Source: Haloferax sp. Atlit-12N (GTDB taxonomy: Archaea; Halobacteriota; Halobacteria; Halobacteriales; Haloferacaceae). Taken from it: 64,000 nt of DNA. The translations under genes and the position numbers were made by a program. This document shows, piece after piece, positions 5,831 through 9,660 of this stretch (its first letter is position 1; each line of letters begins with the position of its first letter). A model generated the notes under the pieces. The model was not told the origin of the DNA. It saw only the letters and a program-made list of their open reading frames with translations, and did no database searches. The stretch lies in the NCBI RefSeq assembly GCF_003383095.1, contig NZ_PSYW01000001.1, forward strand, positions 186,001 to 250,000. The letters are read 5' to 3'.

Positions 5831-6616
5831 GTGACGAACACGCAGCTGACACTCGTCCAAATCGACAACTACGGGCCGTGGACGGTCACTCCGGACCCGC
5901 GGCGGGAGATGGACCTCCAGACGCTCCAGTCGCGGCTCTTCGCCGACTTGGCCCAGTTCGTCGGCTCTCGCGACGGGTACGCGTTTTTTACCCGGTTCGA
6001 CAACATGGTCGCGGTCACGAACGGGCTCGACCGCGACGACCACGAACTGCTGCAGGAGTCTATCGGAAACCGCTATCCCGTAACGCTCAGTCTCGGTATC
6101 GGCGCCGACCGGTCGCCTGCAGTCGCGCTCGAACGCGCCACCGACCGCATCCAGCGCGCCGGCAGCGCGCAGGACGGCGACCGCCGCGAGGTGCTCTCCG
6201 GTGAGACCCTCGCGGACGCCGACCGCTCGGACACCGACCTCCAAATCGCGCACTTCGACGTGAACGACGCGACGGGCAAGTACACCGACCGCCTCAACGA
6301 GTTCGACACGTTCATCCACATCGAACAGGGCTACGCGTCGCTCATGCGCCACCTGCGCGAGGAACACGGTGCGCTGTCGTTCTTCGTCGGCGGCGACAAC
6401 ATCATCTCGGTCACGCCCGACCTCACCGAAGACCAGTACCGTAACGCCATCGACCACGTCGAGGCCGAGGCGGACGTGGAACTCAAAGTCGGCGTCGGCA
6501 CGGCTTCGAACGCCCACGAGGCCGGCTTCGCGGCCAAGCACGCGCTCGAAGACTGCCGCCACCGCGGCACGACCGTCGAGTTCGCCGACGCGGCCGTCGA
6601 GACCGCAGACGACTGA
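5831..6616 (+). CDS. arfA: GTP cyclohydrolase III (GTP cyclohydrolase IIa)
   Basis: A 261-residue archaeal GCH III, made of two copies of a nucleotidyl-cyclase-like domain. The first contains FTRFDNMVAVTNG and the second FFVGGDNIISVTP, with the GD and ND metal-binding aspartates. The enzyme converts GTP to the formamidopyrimidine FAPy nucleotide, the first step of archaeal riboflavin and F420 synthesis. It does not make dihydroneopterin triphosphate. The start is GTG; it gives the family N terminus TNTQLTLVQIDNYGPWT. The next gene begins 3 nt after the stop, and the operon continues through the PTPS-like and glycosyltransferase genes. Confidence 0.93.
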   Translation: MTNTQLTLVQIDNYGPWTVTPDPRREMDLQTLQSRLFADLAQFVGSRDGYAFFTRFDNMVAVTNGLDRDDHELLQESIGNRYPVTLSLGIGADRSPAVALERATDRIQRAGSAQDGDRREVLSGETLADADRSDTDLQIAHFDVNDATGKYTDRLNEFDTFIHIEQGYASLMRHLREEHGALSFFVGGDNIISVTPDLTEDQYRNAIDHVEAEADVELKVGVGTASNAHEAGFAAKHALEDCRHRGTTVEFADAAVETADD

Positions 6617-6619
6617 ACG

Positions 6620-7618
6620 ATGGAGGGTCGCGCGGTCTACTTCGTGGCCCCCGAACGCGTCGAGGTCCGCGACCGCGACGTGCCCGCTCCCGGCCCCGGT
6701 GAGGTTCGCGTCCGCACCCTGACCTCCGCCGTGAGTTCCGGCACCGAGCGACTCGTCTACCGCGGCGAGGCCCCGACCGACCTCGCCGCCGACGAGTCCA
6801 TCGCGGCGCTCGACGGCGACCTCTCGTTTCCGCTCCGCTACGGCTACGCCGCCGTCGGCGAAATCGAGGCCGTCGGCGACGACGTGCCCGGCTCGCGGCT
6901 CGGAAGCCGCGTCTTCGCGTTCAACCCCCACGAGAGCCGATTTCTGGCGTCCCCCTCGGAACTCATCTCCATCCCCGACGACGTGACCGACGAGCGCGCC
7001 GCGCTCTTGCCGACGATGGAGACCGCGCTCAACTTCGTGATGGACGGACGGCCGCTCATCGGCGAGCACGTCGTCGTCTTCGGACAGGGCGTCGTCGGCC
7101 TCGTGACCACCGCGCTCCTCGCGCAGTTCCCGCTCGGGAGCCTGACCGCGGTCGACTGCGTGGCCGAGCGCCGGGCCATCGCCGAGGCGCTCGGTGCCGA
7201 CGAGGCCGTCCATCCCGAGTCGCTGGACGCGCCCGCCGACGGGGCCGACCTGACGCTCGAACTCTCGGGCGACCCCGACGCCCTCGACGACGCCCTGTCG
7301 GTGACGCGGTACGACGGCCGGGTCGTCGTCGGGTCGTGGTACGGAACCAAGCCCGCCACCCTCGACCTCGGCGGGCGGTTCCACCGCTCGCGCATCAGCG
7401 TCGAGAGCAGTCAAGTCAGCACCATCGACCCCGACCTCCGGGGGCGCTGGGACGCCGACCGCCGCTTTTCCTTGGCGTGGGACCACCTCGAAGACCTCCC
7501 GCTGGACCCGCTCGTGACCCACCGAATGGGTGTCGAGTCCGCCGCGCGCGCCTACCGACTCCTCGAAGACGCCCCCGACGAGGCCGTCCAAATCCTCTTT
7601 ACCTACCGGAACGCTTGA
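6620..7618 (+). CDS. MDR-family dehydrogenase/reductase lacking zinc ligands
   Basis: A 332-residue medium-chain dehydrogenase/reductase. The N-terminal GroES-like part holds SSGTERLVYRGEAP where ADHs carry the catalytic-zinc Cys, and RYGYAAVGEIEAVG where they carry GHE, so the metal site is absent. The Rossmann part starts at VVVFGQGVVGLVTTALL. This pattern resembles the BchC-like branch (SGTERLL, then YGYE.VG). It probably uses NAD(P)H on a ring or side-chain carbonyl. It is sandwiched between arfA and a PTPS-like gene, so a pterin or flavin precursor is a reasonable substrate guess, but only a guess. Confidence 0.8.
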   Translation: MEGRAVYFVAPERVEVRDRDVPAPGPGEVRVRTLTSAVSSGTERLVYRGEAPTDLAADESIAALDGDLSFPLRYGYAAVGEIEAVGDDVPGSRLGSRVFAFNPHESRFLASPSELISIPDDVTDERAALLPTMETALNFVMDGRPLIGEHVVVFGQGVVGLVTTALLAQFPLGSLTAVDCVAERRAIAEALGADEAVHPESLDAPADGADLTLELSGDPDALDDALSVTRYDGRVVVGSWYGTKPATLDLGGRFHRSRISVESSQVSTIDPDLRGRWDADRRFSLAWDHLEDLPLDPLVTHRMGVESAARAYRLLEDAPDEAVQILFTYRNA

Positions 7619-7624
7619 CAGTTC

Positions 7625-8002
7625 ATGTACCGCGTCTCGGTTCGCAGGGACCTCATCGCCCAGCACTACCTGACGGTTCCGAACCCCGGACCGGAAGGTG
7701 AGCTTCACTCCCACGCGTTCACCGTCGAGGTCGAACTCTCGGGCCCGGAACTCGACGAGTACGGCTATCTCGTCGATATCGACGACGTAAAGGCCGCGCT
7801 GGACGCGACGCTGTCTCGCTACCGCGACGAGACCATGAACGAACTCGTCGAGTTCGCCGGGCAGAACCCGAGCGTCGAGCGGTTCGCCCGCGAGGTGTGC
7901 GAACAGTTCGTCGAGGCGGCGTCACTTGAGGCGCCCCAGCACGTCTCCGTTCGCATCTGGGAGGACGACGTCGCGAGCGCGACCTACGAGACGCCGCTCT
8001 GA
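7625..8002 (+). CDS. 6-pyruvoyl-tetrahydropterin synthase/QueD-like protein, Cys-less active site
   Basis: A 125-residue T-fold protein. The zinc histidines are readable as His14 and His28-x-His30 (LHSHAF), and VDIDDVK and the PSVERFARE helix (usual PT.E..A) are present. The catalytic Cys of QueD, four residues before the first His of HxH, is Glu24. The usual Asp-His pair (LDH..LN) is replaced by a DETMN segment. Glu for Cys is a hallmark of PTPS-III proteins, which release 6-hydroxymethyl-dihydropterin. So this is probably not a normal QueD. It starts 6 nt after the MDR gene. Confidence 0.85.
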   Translation: MYRVSVRRDLIAQHYLTVPNPGPEGELHSHAFTVEVELSGPELDEYGYLVDIDDVKAALDATLSRYRDETMNELVEFAGQNPSVERFAREVCEQFVEAASLEAPQHVSVRIWEDDVASATYETPL

Positions 8003-8003
8003 C

Positions 8004-9101
8004 GTGCGGGTCGGAATCGTCGTCTACGGCCCGCTCGACGCCCGTTCGGGCGGCTATCGCTACGACTCAGAACTCGTCGATGGGCTCCGCGCCGCCGGCG
8101 ACGACGTGACCGTCGTCTCGCTCCCCGAGCGGTCGTACCGAAAGCGACTCCGAGACAACGTCTCCGCCGCGCGTCGCCTCCGCGGCCTCGACGTGGACGT
8201 GCTCTTGCAAGACGAACTGTGTCACCCCTCGCTCGCCGGCACGAACGCCGCGCTCGACGACGACATCCCGGTCGTCTCTGTCGTCCACCACCTCAACTCG
8301 CTGGAACAGTTCCGTGCGTGGCGACGACACGCCAGACGCGCCGTCGAGAGTCGGTATCTCCGCTCCGCGGACGCGTTCGTGTTCAACAGCGAGACGACGA
8401 AAGAGACGGTCGCGGCCGTCACCGACCCCGAACCGAGCGTCGTGGCGTACCCCGCCGGCGACCGCTTTTCGTCGTTCGGCGCGCCCCTCGGCGACGACGA
8501 GATACGGGCGCGAGCCACCGACGGGCCGCTCCGGGTCGTCACGGTCTGCAACCTCGAACCGCGGAAGAACGTCGACGGCCTGCTCCGTGGCCTCTCCCGC
8601 GTCTGCGGCGACTGGGAGTTGAGGGTCGTCGGTGCGGCGGTCGACACCGACTACGCCGACTCCCTTTCAGACCTCGCCGTCGCCCGCGGCATCGACGACC
8701 GCGTGACTTTCGCGGGCCGGCTTTCGGACGCCGACCTCGCCGCGACGCTCCGGGAGTCGCACCTGTTCGCGCTCCCCTCACACTACGAGGGGTTCGGCAT
8801 CGCGGCGGTCGAGGCGATGGGGTTCGGCCTGCCGGCGCTCGTCTCGTCGGCCGGCGGCGCGAGCGAACTCGTCACGCACCGCGAGGACGGCTTCCTCGTC
8901 GACCCGACGGACTCGGCCGAAATCACCGACGCCGTGGCTCCGCTGTGTCGGAACCGTCGACGACTGCAGTCGCTCTCGCTTTCCGCCCGCGACCGTTTTC
9001 TCGCGCACCCGACGTGGGACGAGACGGCGGCGACGGTTCGCTCGTTCCTGTTGGACCTCGTCGATGCCGACAACACGGGGTCGTCCCCGAACCGGAAGTA
9101 G
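8004..9101 (+). CDS. GT4-type glycosyltransferase
   Basis: A 365-residue GT-B fold glycosyltransferase. The GTG start at 8004 follows the PTPS-like stop by one nucleotide and yields VRVGIVVYGPLDARSGGYRYD. The C-terminal donor domain contains VVTVCNLEPRKNVDGLL, VTFAGRLSDADL and the signature FALPSHYEGFGIAAVEAMGFG with the E-x7-E motif. Such enzymes transfer sugar from a nucleotide or phosphosugar donor. No membrane segment is visible. As the last gene of the arfA-MDR-PTPS block, it may glycosylate a small molecule rather than a cell-surface glycan; that is inference. Confidence 0.88.
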   Translation: MRVGIVVYGPLDARSGGYRYDSELVDGLRAAGDDVTVVSLPERSYRKRLRDNVSAARRLRGLDVDVLLQDELCHPSLAGTNAALDDDIPVVSVVHHLNSLEQFRAWRRHARRAVESRYLRSADAFVFNSETTKETVAAVTDPEPSVVAYPAGDRFSSFGAPLGDDEIRARATDGPLRVVTVCNLEPRKNVDGLLRGLSRVCGDWELRVVGAAVDTDYADSLSDLAVARGIDDRVTFAGRLSDADLAATLRESHLFALPSHYEGFGIAAVEAMGFGLPALVSSAGGASELVTHREDGFLVDPTDSAEITDAVAPLCRNRRRLQSLSLSARDRFLAHPTWDETAATVRSFLLDLVDADNTGSSPNRK

Positions 9102-9122
9102 CCGCGGGTCGCCGCTGCGGTC

Positions 9123-9608
9123 TCAGTCGCGGGCGACGCGGACCCACTCTTGGAGCGTGAAGCCCTCGTAGTCGGTCTCCGAGTCGAGTTCCCACTCGTC
9201 GTCGTCCCACTCGGGGTAGAACGTGTCGCCCTCGTACTCGCCGGGAACGCGACTCAGCATCATCCGGTCGAGGTGTGGTTGGAACAGCGCGTAGATGGCG
9301 GCCCCGCCGATGACGTAAGCGGTCTCCGCGCCCAGCGATTCCGCGATTTCGACCGCCTCCTCGACGCTCGCCGCGCGGTGAGCCGTGTCGACCGAAAACG
9401 ACCGCTCGCTTCGGCTCATGACGATTTGGGCGCTCCCCGGCAGGTCGTCGAGCATCGACTCGAACGTCGTCCGGCCGAGCACCACCGGGTCGTCGGCGAT
9501 GCGGTTTCGGTACTGCTCCTTGTCGGCGGGGATGCTCGGCCACGGGAGTTCGCCGTCGCGGCCGATGACACGGTTCTCGGCGAGCGCGGCGACAGAGACG
9601 AGTTCCAT
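9123..9608 (-). CDS. hdrA: Dihydrofolate reductase HdrA
   Basis: A 161-residue [44 protein letters not shown], the NADPH-binding YVIGGAAIY and the FYPEWD end. The sequence is very close to H. volcanii HdrA as I remember it. The enzyme reduces dihydrofolate to tetrahydrofolate using NADPH. The ATG at 9606-9608 is the family start; upstream in-frame GTG codons would add three residues. It converges with the glycosyltransferase gene, whose operon carries pterin-type genes. Confidence 0.95.
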
Positions 9609-9660
9609 CACTCTCACGTCGGGCGCGCGCGAGAAAATCGTTGTGCAGCGCGGTCATCGT

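Follow-up and report, generated by a model that had tools for sequence, protein, structure and literature searches.

A gene set around a PTPS-like protein in haloarchaea and bacteria, with a possible role in making a glycosylated, methylated pterin-like conjugate

What do four tightly spaced genes beside a haloarchaeal dihydrofolate reductase gene make? The genes lie in a 64,000-nucleotide stretch of Haloferax sp. Atlit-12N (contig NZ_PSYW01000001.1, positions 186,001 to 250,000), hereafter the window, and encode the GTP cyclohydrolase ArfA, a zinc-less medium-chain dehydrogenase/reductase (MDR), a T-fold homologue of 6-pyruvoyltetrahydropterin synthase (the PTPS-like protein) and a GT4 glycosyltransferase. 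Here we report that this operon is part of a conserved set, common to many haloarchaea and bacteria, that very probably serves a dedicated pathway, because the set has an all-or-none distribution, its loci are conserved in both bacteria and haloarchaea, and ArfA proteins split into a canonical and a cluster-linked group. Taken as a whole, we read the set as turning the product of a riboflavin-type cyclohydrolase into a glycosylated, methylated and possibly lipid-anchored pterin-like conjugate, with the operon as the front half of the route, a proposal to which we give an even chance of being right.

Distribution of the gene set

Across 194 Halobacteria genomes, four markers (the PTPS-like protein, the MDR, an S-adenosylmethionine (SAM)-dependent methyltransferase and a CDP-alcohol phosphatidyltransferase) were all found in 106, all missing from 79 and mixed in 9, at presence thresholds of 1e-5, 1e-50, 1e-15 and 1e-20, respectively. 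Taken singly, they occur in 114, 111, 113 and 109 genomes. Of the 114 genomes with the PTPS-like gene (PTPS-positive), 113 have the methyltransferase and 108 the CDP-alcohol transferase; of the 80 without it, none has the former and 1 has the latter. Fisher values for these co-occurrences overstate their significance because the species are related. One missing MDR (G163) is a contig-end artefact, with a partial match at the end of its locus (L063), and the MDR was missed in G072 too.

The original prediction, made from the letters of the window, overlooked the methyltransferase, the CDP-alcohol phosphatidyltransferase and the occurrence of the set in two domains of life. Both genes are present in 10/10 sampled genomes of the window's genus. 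In the window's own genome (G000) the set is split, and the two form a pair about 133 kb from the operon (C1:193625). The features are given below, the first five in window coordinates and the last two in those of C1.

5831..6616, plus strand: arfA, GTP cyclohydrolase III/IIa of the canonical type (PF05165, 4e-86; NF002587, GTP cyclohydrolase IIa, 4e-124)
6620..7618, plus strand: MDR oxidoreductase, zinc-less, weakly BchC- or polyol-dehydrogenase-like (PF00107, 4.5e-11)
7625..8002, plus strand: PTPS-like T-fold protein (PF01242, 1e-24)
8004..9101, plus strand: GT4 retaining glycosyltransferase, GTG start (PF00534, 2e-34)
9123-9617, or to 9608 with an ATG start, minus strand: dihydrofolate reductase of HdrA type, convergent with the operon (NF041386)
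C1:326481-327167: CDP-alcohol phosphatidyltransferase, adjoining the methyltransferase (PF01066, 6e-19)
G000:C1:327213-328085: SAM-methyltransferase, divergent from the CDP-alcohol transferase (class-wide profile search)

Open reading frame coordinates together with Pfam and NCBIfam matches confirm the four-gene plus-strand operon and convergent dihydrofolate reductase gene first described, with gaps of 3 nt (arfA to MDR), 6 nt (MDR to PTPS-like) and 1 nt (PTPS-like to GT4). The window ArfA scores above the curated cut-off of NF002587 (413.4 bits vs 306), and the reductase matches the HdrA model NF041386 at 2e-84 and 281 bits, slightly below the cut-off of 300.

Gene order was surveyed in 60 haloarchaeal loci of 15 kb, hand-picked for spread (59 genomes, G038 twice), from which the search profiles were partly built. 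The MDR accompanies the PTPS-like gene most constantly, being found in 56/60 loci and on the same strand in 56/56, followed by the methyltransferase (49), GT4 (45), the CDP-alcohol transferase (41), DUF7475 (38) and arfA (22); a sulfatase-like protein occurs in 13 and a Gfo/Idh-aldo-keto reductase fusion in 17 (e.g., L033:8760-10757), the Gfo/Idh part of which is weakly IolG-like (37 bits, cut-off 355). On a plasmid of Haloarcula halophila, Gfo/Idh, CDP-alcohol transferase, GTP cyclohydrolase IIa, MDR, PTPS-like and methyltransferase genes are consecutive. The original prediction had staked itself on the operon's genes co-occurring in other genomes, and they do so for the MDR, the PTPS-like protein and, usually, GT4, the weak member being arfA. 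A proposed folate connection through hdrA did not survive the survey: hdrA lies near the PTPS-like gene in 1/60 loci, that of a congener, a second sampled congener having no hdrA there, and the adjacency in the window looks incidental. Broken or duplicated copies were also seen: G038 (L035, L079) has the PTPS-like, MDR and methyltransferase genes in two copies each, with one PTPS-like frame split; G154 (L078) has a stop within the PTPS-like frame; and on two plasmid records of Haloarcula marismortui the PTPS-like match falls into two parts.

The same set is clustered in bacteria. We collected the best 80 of 574 relatives from a genome scan and four plasmid loci, 84 in all, and counted neighbours in the 59 (the plasmid loci among them) that have 6 kb or more of flanking sequence in both directions; the gene caller mis-starts some genes, and presence counts were taken from profile searches instead. 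By record title, the 80 loci belong to actinomycetes, several proteobacteria, Acidobacteria and members of the Longimicrobiales and Nannocystaceae. MDR and methyltransferase accompany the PTPS-like gene in all 59 loci, GT4 in 58, the CDP-alcohol transferase in 55, a flippase-like LPG_synthase_TM protein in 48 and a sulfatase in 17. Haloarchaeal profiles recover all of the grouped bacterial genes (74 PTPS, 67 GT4, 62 MDR, 52 CDP-alcohol transferase and 44 methyltransferase genes over the 84 loci). Plasmids of Streptomyces, Methylosinus, Thiodictyon and Agrobacterium carry the same arrangement around relatives of the Streptomyces coelicolor protein SCO6650, one or more of GTP cyclohydrolase II, a creatininase-family protein and a RibD-family protein being annotated nearby. 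GTP cyclohydrolase I was not among the ten most recurrent bacterial families, eleven further families (6-11 loci each) being unassigned in that check. Cytochrome b561, considered as a further member, was dropped, as it occurs in only 3/84 loci. A contig labelled as a Natrialbaceae archaeon, from a metagenome-assembled genome (L127, PWMF01000113.1), has a bacterial-type cluster whose PTPS-like protein is 64% identical to that of Thiodictyon, by transfer or mis-binning.

The PTPS-like protein and its partner enzymes

Residues were counted over one row set per unique genome, with 75 haloarchaeal and 59 bacterial PTPS rows. The window protein keeps the metal triad His14/His28/His30 and the pterin-anchoring (ring-anchoring) residue Glu113. 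His14, Glu85 and Glu113 are invariant in 75/75 haloarchaeal and 59/59 bacterial rows; His28 and Asp51 are almost as constant in both domains. The cysteine of QueD is indeed missing, as first noticed: Glu24 takes its position in 74/75 haloarchaeal rows, giving a motif that reads ExxxHSH, with Ser at position 29 in 73/75. The window protein shares with QueD (PTPS-I) the T-fold, three metal-site histidines and E113, and differs in having Glu24, Arg67 and Asp68 for Cys27, Asp70 and His71 (QueD numbering), as well as in its gene neighbourhood; Arg67 and Asp68 stand at the QueD Asp-His positions in 62/75 and 72/75 rows.

According to its passages on subfamily motifs, PMC5041015 defines PTPS-I/QueD by CxxxHGH, PTPS-II by CxxxxxHGH and PTPS-III by ExxHGH. 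None of these fits. QueD identity is ruled out by both the motif and the catalytic Asp-His pair. The biopterin enzyme PTPS-II is excluded in the same way, its Cys position being Gly22 in 64/75 rows with Cys not among the three commonest residues, and so is the folate enzyme PTPS-III, whose Glu position (25) is Gly in 68, Ala in 6 and Ser in 1 of the 75 rows. The label "PTPS-III-like" in the original prediction was therefore mistaken. The group could be PTPS-IV or PTPS-V under another name, the role of the latter being called unclear where PMC5041015 mentions it.

Both profile and structure comparisons have SCO6650 (PDB 3d7j, an uncharacterised PTPS homologue) as the best solved match. An AlphaFold2 model of the window protein, built from 28 aligned rows, is a confident T-fold (mean pLDDT 92.6) and matches 3d7j with a Foldseek value of 1.7e-11, Z 18.8 and a root-mean-square deviation of 1.9 A; QueD and other PTPS structures follow at Z about 16 (QueD 16.0), and GTP cyclohydrolase I and dihydroneopterin aldolase, at Z 8-10 in the VIA-align list, share only the common fold. 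The profile match to SCO6650 is 6e-62, from a profile that includes close bacterial relatives. In an unrooted tree, from which PTPS-II and PTPS-III were left out and in which a close relative (L093) stood in for SCO6650, 21 haloarchaeal and 20 bacterial cluster proteins split from 12 QueD rows with support 98/90. By sequence, the window protein groups with the Streptomyces SCO6650 family, apart from QueD.

The likeness to SCO6650 extends to its surroundings. A relative that shares 95% identity with it along 100 residues belongs to the same MDR-PTPS-GT4-methyltransferase set, and the MDR, GT4 and methyltransferase neighbours of the SCO6650-like clade are also found in haloarchaea, the window genome having its methyltransferase elsewhere. 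SCO6650 and the window protein are 26-27% identical, and the bacterial family has HGA for the haloarchaeal HSH and Ala for Glu24. The paper describing the SCO6650 structure reportedly found a protein without zinc and without PTPS activity.

The partner enzymes have equally consistent active sites. The original prediction of an MDR without zinc ligands holds: by alignment, the window protein has Ser40 at the Cys position and Tyr76 for the His of "GHE". In 70/70 haloarchaeal rows residue 40 is Pro, Ala or Ser, in 57/57 bacterial ones it is Arg, and Tyr76 is present in all 127, which rules out a zinc-dependent MDR alcohol dehydrogenase. Identity between the window MDR and three bacterial cluster MDRs is 33-40% (E 1e-38 to 1e-57). 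Retaining glycosyltransferases of the GT4 family are marked by E-x7-E in their C-terminal domain, and both glutamates (E262 and E270 here) are kept in 58/58 haloarchaeal and 57/57 bacterial rows. CDP-alcohol phosphatidyltransferases carry the motif DGx2ARx8Gx3Dx3D, the residues of which are invariant in 7/7 aligned proteins.

Riboflavin-type GTP cyclohydrolases and a candidate pathway

ArfA and RibA are unrelated families, and both are found beside the PTPS-like gene. Among the 59 bacterial loci, 56 have at least one of RibA, RibD and a creatininase-family gene. An internal control measured how far the best RibA match lies from the PTPS gene: the distance stays within 6 kb in 40 loci and exceeds it in 1. 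In a count covering 18 of 48 RibA-bearing loci, at least two GTP_cyclohydro2 genes over cut-off were present in 18/18 bacterial genomes with cluster-linked RibA, against 3/6 cluster genomes whose locus lacks RibA. The cluster RibD proteins checked (5/5, all proteobacterial) have RibD_C and no deaminase domain. The 2-amino group would hence be retained, in keeping with a pterin-type ring and not with a flavin.

In haloarchaea, an unrooted tree of 42 ArfA proteins separates nine cluster-linked ones from 33 canonical ones, the window's included (support 100/99, with a program warning of long branches). Eight of the nine are in sampled genomes, six of which have a further ArfA match and two of which (G050 and G014) have none. 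The canonical type stands beside the cluster in other lineages, namely that of the window and, with two arfA matches per genome, at L039, L044 and L045. In one genus (g40: G050, G079, G089, G140 and G145), a bacterial-type RibA adjoins RibH in 5/5 genomes, and ArfA is found only in G050, within its cluster; here the archaeal entry enzyme of riboflavin synthesis seems to have been replaced, and since the genus has this RibA, the lone cluster ArfA of G050 is the more telling. The notion that these species are riboflavin auxotrophs is wrong, as RibH, RibD_C and the bacterial-type RibA are present. Based on RibA in bacteria and the distinct cluster-linked ArfA in some haloarchaea, we conclude that the set became linked to a riboflavin-type GTP cyclohydrolase on more than one occasion and that this linkage looks functional. 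The cyclohydrolase that the original prediction placed in the set is thus upheld as a recurring link and weakened as a constant member.

We consider it likely that a GTP-derived pyrimidine is the substrate of the pathway. ArfA (here) or RibA (in bacteria) would open GTP to a 2,5-diamino- or formylamino-4-oxo-pyrimidine bearing ribose phosphate. A creatininase-family deformylase and a reductase-only RibD, of ArfB/ArfC type, would then yield a ribityl compound; these enzymes are in the cluster in many bacteria and presumably housekeeping copies in the window genome. This compound would keep its 2-amino group, given the lack of a deaminase domain in those cluster RibD proteins that were checked. 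The PTPS-like T-fold would bind the 2-amino-4-oxo ring through E113 and, with the MDR, remodel the side chain, plausibly to a pterin. GT4 would add a sugar, the methyltransferase a methyl group, and the CDP-alcohol phosphatidyltransferase would join a polyol phosphate to a CDP-lipid (CDP-archaeol in archaea), after which, in bacteria, the flippase-like protein would carry the product outward. That the product is a lipid or phosphodiester conjugate is plausible, at slightly less than an even chance. Substrates, order of steps, lipid anchoring and product are all those that the enzyme families suggest.

The first steps resemble the archaeal ArfA-ArfB-ArfC front end of riboflavin and F420 synthesis, and RibA with a creatininase-family protein and a reductase-only RibD (families assigned by Pfam) could give the same pyrimidine. 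The set differs from that route in its distinct cluster ArfA group and in the MDR, PTPS-like, GT4, methyltransferase and CDP-alcohol transferase genes, which are not riboflavin genes.

A bolder version, which we regard as improbable, is a pterin route free of GTP cyclohydrolase I that feeds lipid-anchored glyco-pterins in both domains, consistent with the sequences and conjectural in every chemical step. RibA or ArfA with a RibD-type reductase would give ribityl-diaminopyrimidine; the MDR would oxidise the ribityl 2'-hydroxyl in the manner of a polyol dehydrogenase, giving the same keto intermediate that GTP cyclohydrolase I forms; ring closure to dihydroneopterin phosphate would fall to the T-fold protein, which is related to that enzyme by fold; and the CDP-alcohol transferase, GT4 and methyltransferase would finish a membrane lipid with a pterin head group.

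Several observations weigh against the pathway proposed here. The third metal ligand is lost in bacteria, where HGA replaces HSH in 59/59 rows and Ala replaces Glu24, and with this ligand missing the two domains may use the protein for different chemistry, or its bacterial form may only bind. Of the 59 bacterial loci, just 41 have RibA, 35 RibD and 35 creatininase, and of the 60 haloarchaeal ones just 22 have arfA. Two arfA copies are only mildly in excess in PTPS-positive genomes (19/114 vs 4/80). In G014 the distinct cluster-linked ArfA is the only ArfA match and RibA was not found in that genome, and so the protein presumably serves riboflavin as well. GT4 is missing from 15/60 haloarchaeal loci, including 6/8 sampled loci with the distinct ArfA, and the sugar may therefore be dispensable. 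One genome (G077) has a PTPS-like gene (L068, G077:C1:2721104-2721472) and none of the other three markers genome-wide at the thresholds used. Substrate and product, finally, are deduced only.

The position of arfA in the window proves little by itself, since the gene is single-copy there (1 match in the genome) and needed for riboflavin in H. volcanii; as a single copy, it probably also supplies riboflavin in the window's genome. The window's MDR, PTPS-like and GT4 genes presumably match genes beside HVO_1284 of H. volcanii. HVO_1284 is the arfA of that species, and its deletion gives riboflavin auxotrophy, as reported in the main text of PMC8305020, in which HVO_1281 to HVO_1283 were not found. 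As a side observation, the PTPS-like gene of G077 may be an orphan or a remnant.

That haloarchaea keep or lose the set as a whole, and that several bacterial phyla have it clustered, implies a metabolite that is real and fairly common, one without a name in the open-licence literature searched. No description of the gene set or its product was found in the open-licence full-text literature, and an earlier mention outside it is possible; for halopterins, the same literature gave only a single mention of solfapterin. Within such a pathway the solved orphan structure SCO6650, the extra RibA and ArfA copies and many proteins now annotated as QueD would gain a context. Should the product indeed be lipid-linked, it would represent a new class of membrane pterins or pyrimidines, and Haloferax is a tractable host in which to look for it.

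Alternative explanations

The alternative that survives best, and one that we still consider rather unlikely, is the one in line with the original prediction, a soluble glycosylated pterin resembling limipterin, cyanopterin or halopterins, made by the PTPS-like protein, the MDR as a stand-in for sepiapterin reductase and GT4, without any lipid. In limipterin and cyanopterin pathways a PTPS homologue, a reductase and a glycosyltransferase come together, and a reductase and a GT4 with conserved E-x7-E beside a PTPS homologue follow the same logic. By description only, the present set differs from these in its class of reductase, its riboflavin-type cyclohydrolase, its CDP-alcohol transferase and its methyltransferase. 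The CDP-alcohol transferase would have to make a soluble phosphodiester or belong elsewhere, against which stand its close tracking of the PTPS-like gene in both domains and its intact motif; the flippase-like membrane protein of most bacterial loci and the absence of GTP cyclohydrolase I from the ten most recurrent bacterial families argue in the same direction.

An unusual glycophospholipid head group of polyol or inositol type is unlikely, too. The cyclohydrolase would then be there for flavin supply or convenience, and the T-fold protein would have drifted. This explanation accounts for the recurrence of CDP-alcohol transferase, GT4, flippase-like and sulfatase-like proteins, for the resemblance of the MDR to polyol and threonine dehydrogenases, and for the weakly IolG-like fusion protein in part of the haloarchaeal loci. 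Against it are the ties of the set to ArfA and RibA, which belong to unrelated cyclohydrolase classes, the separate clade of cluster-linked ArfA proteins, the accompanying RibD_C and creatininase-family genes, and the invariance of the pterin-anchoring glutamate.

Haloarchaea (mostly) and actinomycetes make F420, and a function of the PTPS-like protein in F420 synthesis, as a member of the PTPS-IV group, was considered as well. CofD is over cut-off in 8/8 actinobacterial cluster genomes checked, and in only 1 of 16 other cluster genomes, 14 having no match and 1 a match below cut-off; six of these 16 are metagenome or uncultured assemblies by title, in which absence is weaker, and nine of the other 10 have no CofD match. 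Over all 24 cluster-bearing bacterial genomes (9 over cut-off, 1 below, 14 without a match), F420 is thus rejected as the common purpose. The PTPS-like gene is also absent from 80 of the 194 haloarchaea, which mostly make F420. In spite of an unpublished remark, quoted in PMC5041015, that names PTPS-IV an F420 enzyme, we regard this explanation as very unlikely.

An ordinary QueD, for tRNA archaeosine, or a folate PTPS-III enzyme beside arfA and hdrA is hardly credible, for although the NCBI name is 6-carboxytetrahydropterin synthase and hdrA is adjacent in the window, the catalytic Cys, His and Asp are lost, the protein falls in a separate tree group, hdrA is not a recurrent neighbour, the QueD model TIGR03367 gives 42.6 bits against a cut-off of 89.25, and G000 has another PTPS-family gene, which does carry the QueD motif CxxxHGH and precedes an open reading frame that reads, by eye, like QueE. 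Nearly all annotated members of the PTPS-like group that we saw bear that NCBI name despite missing the QueD catalytic residues, and most of the opened records so named carry a queuosine Gene Ontology term.

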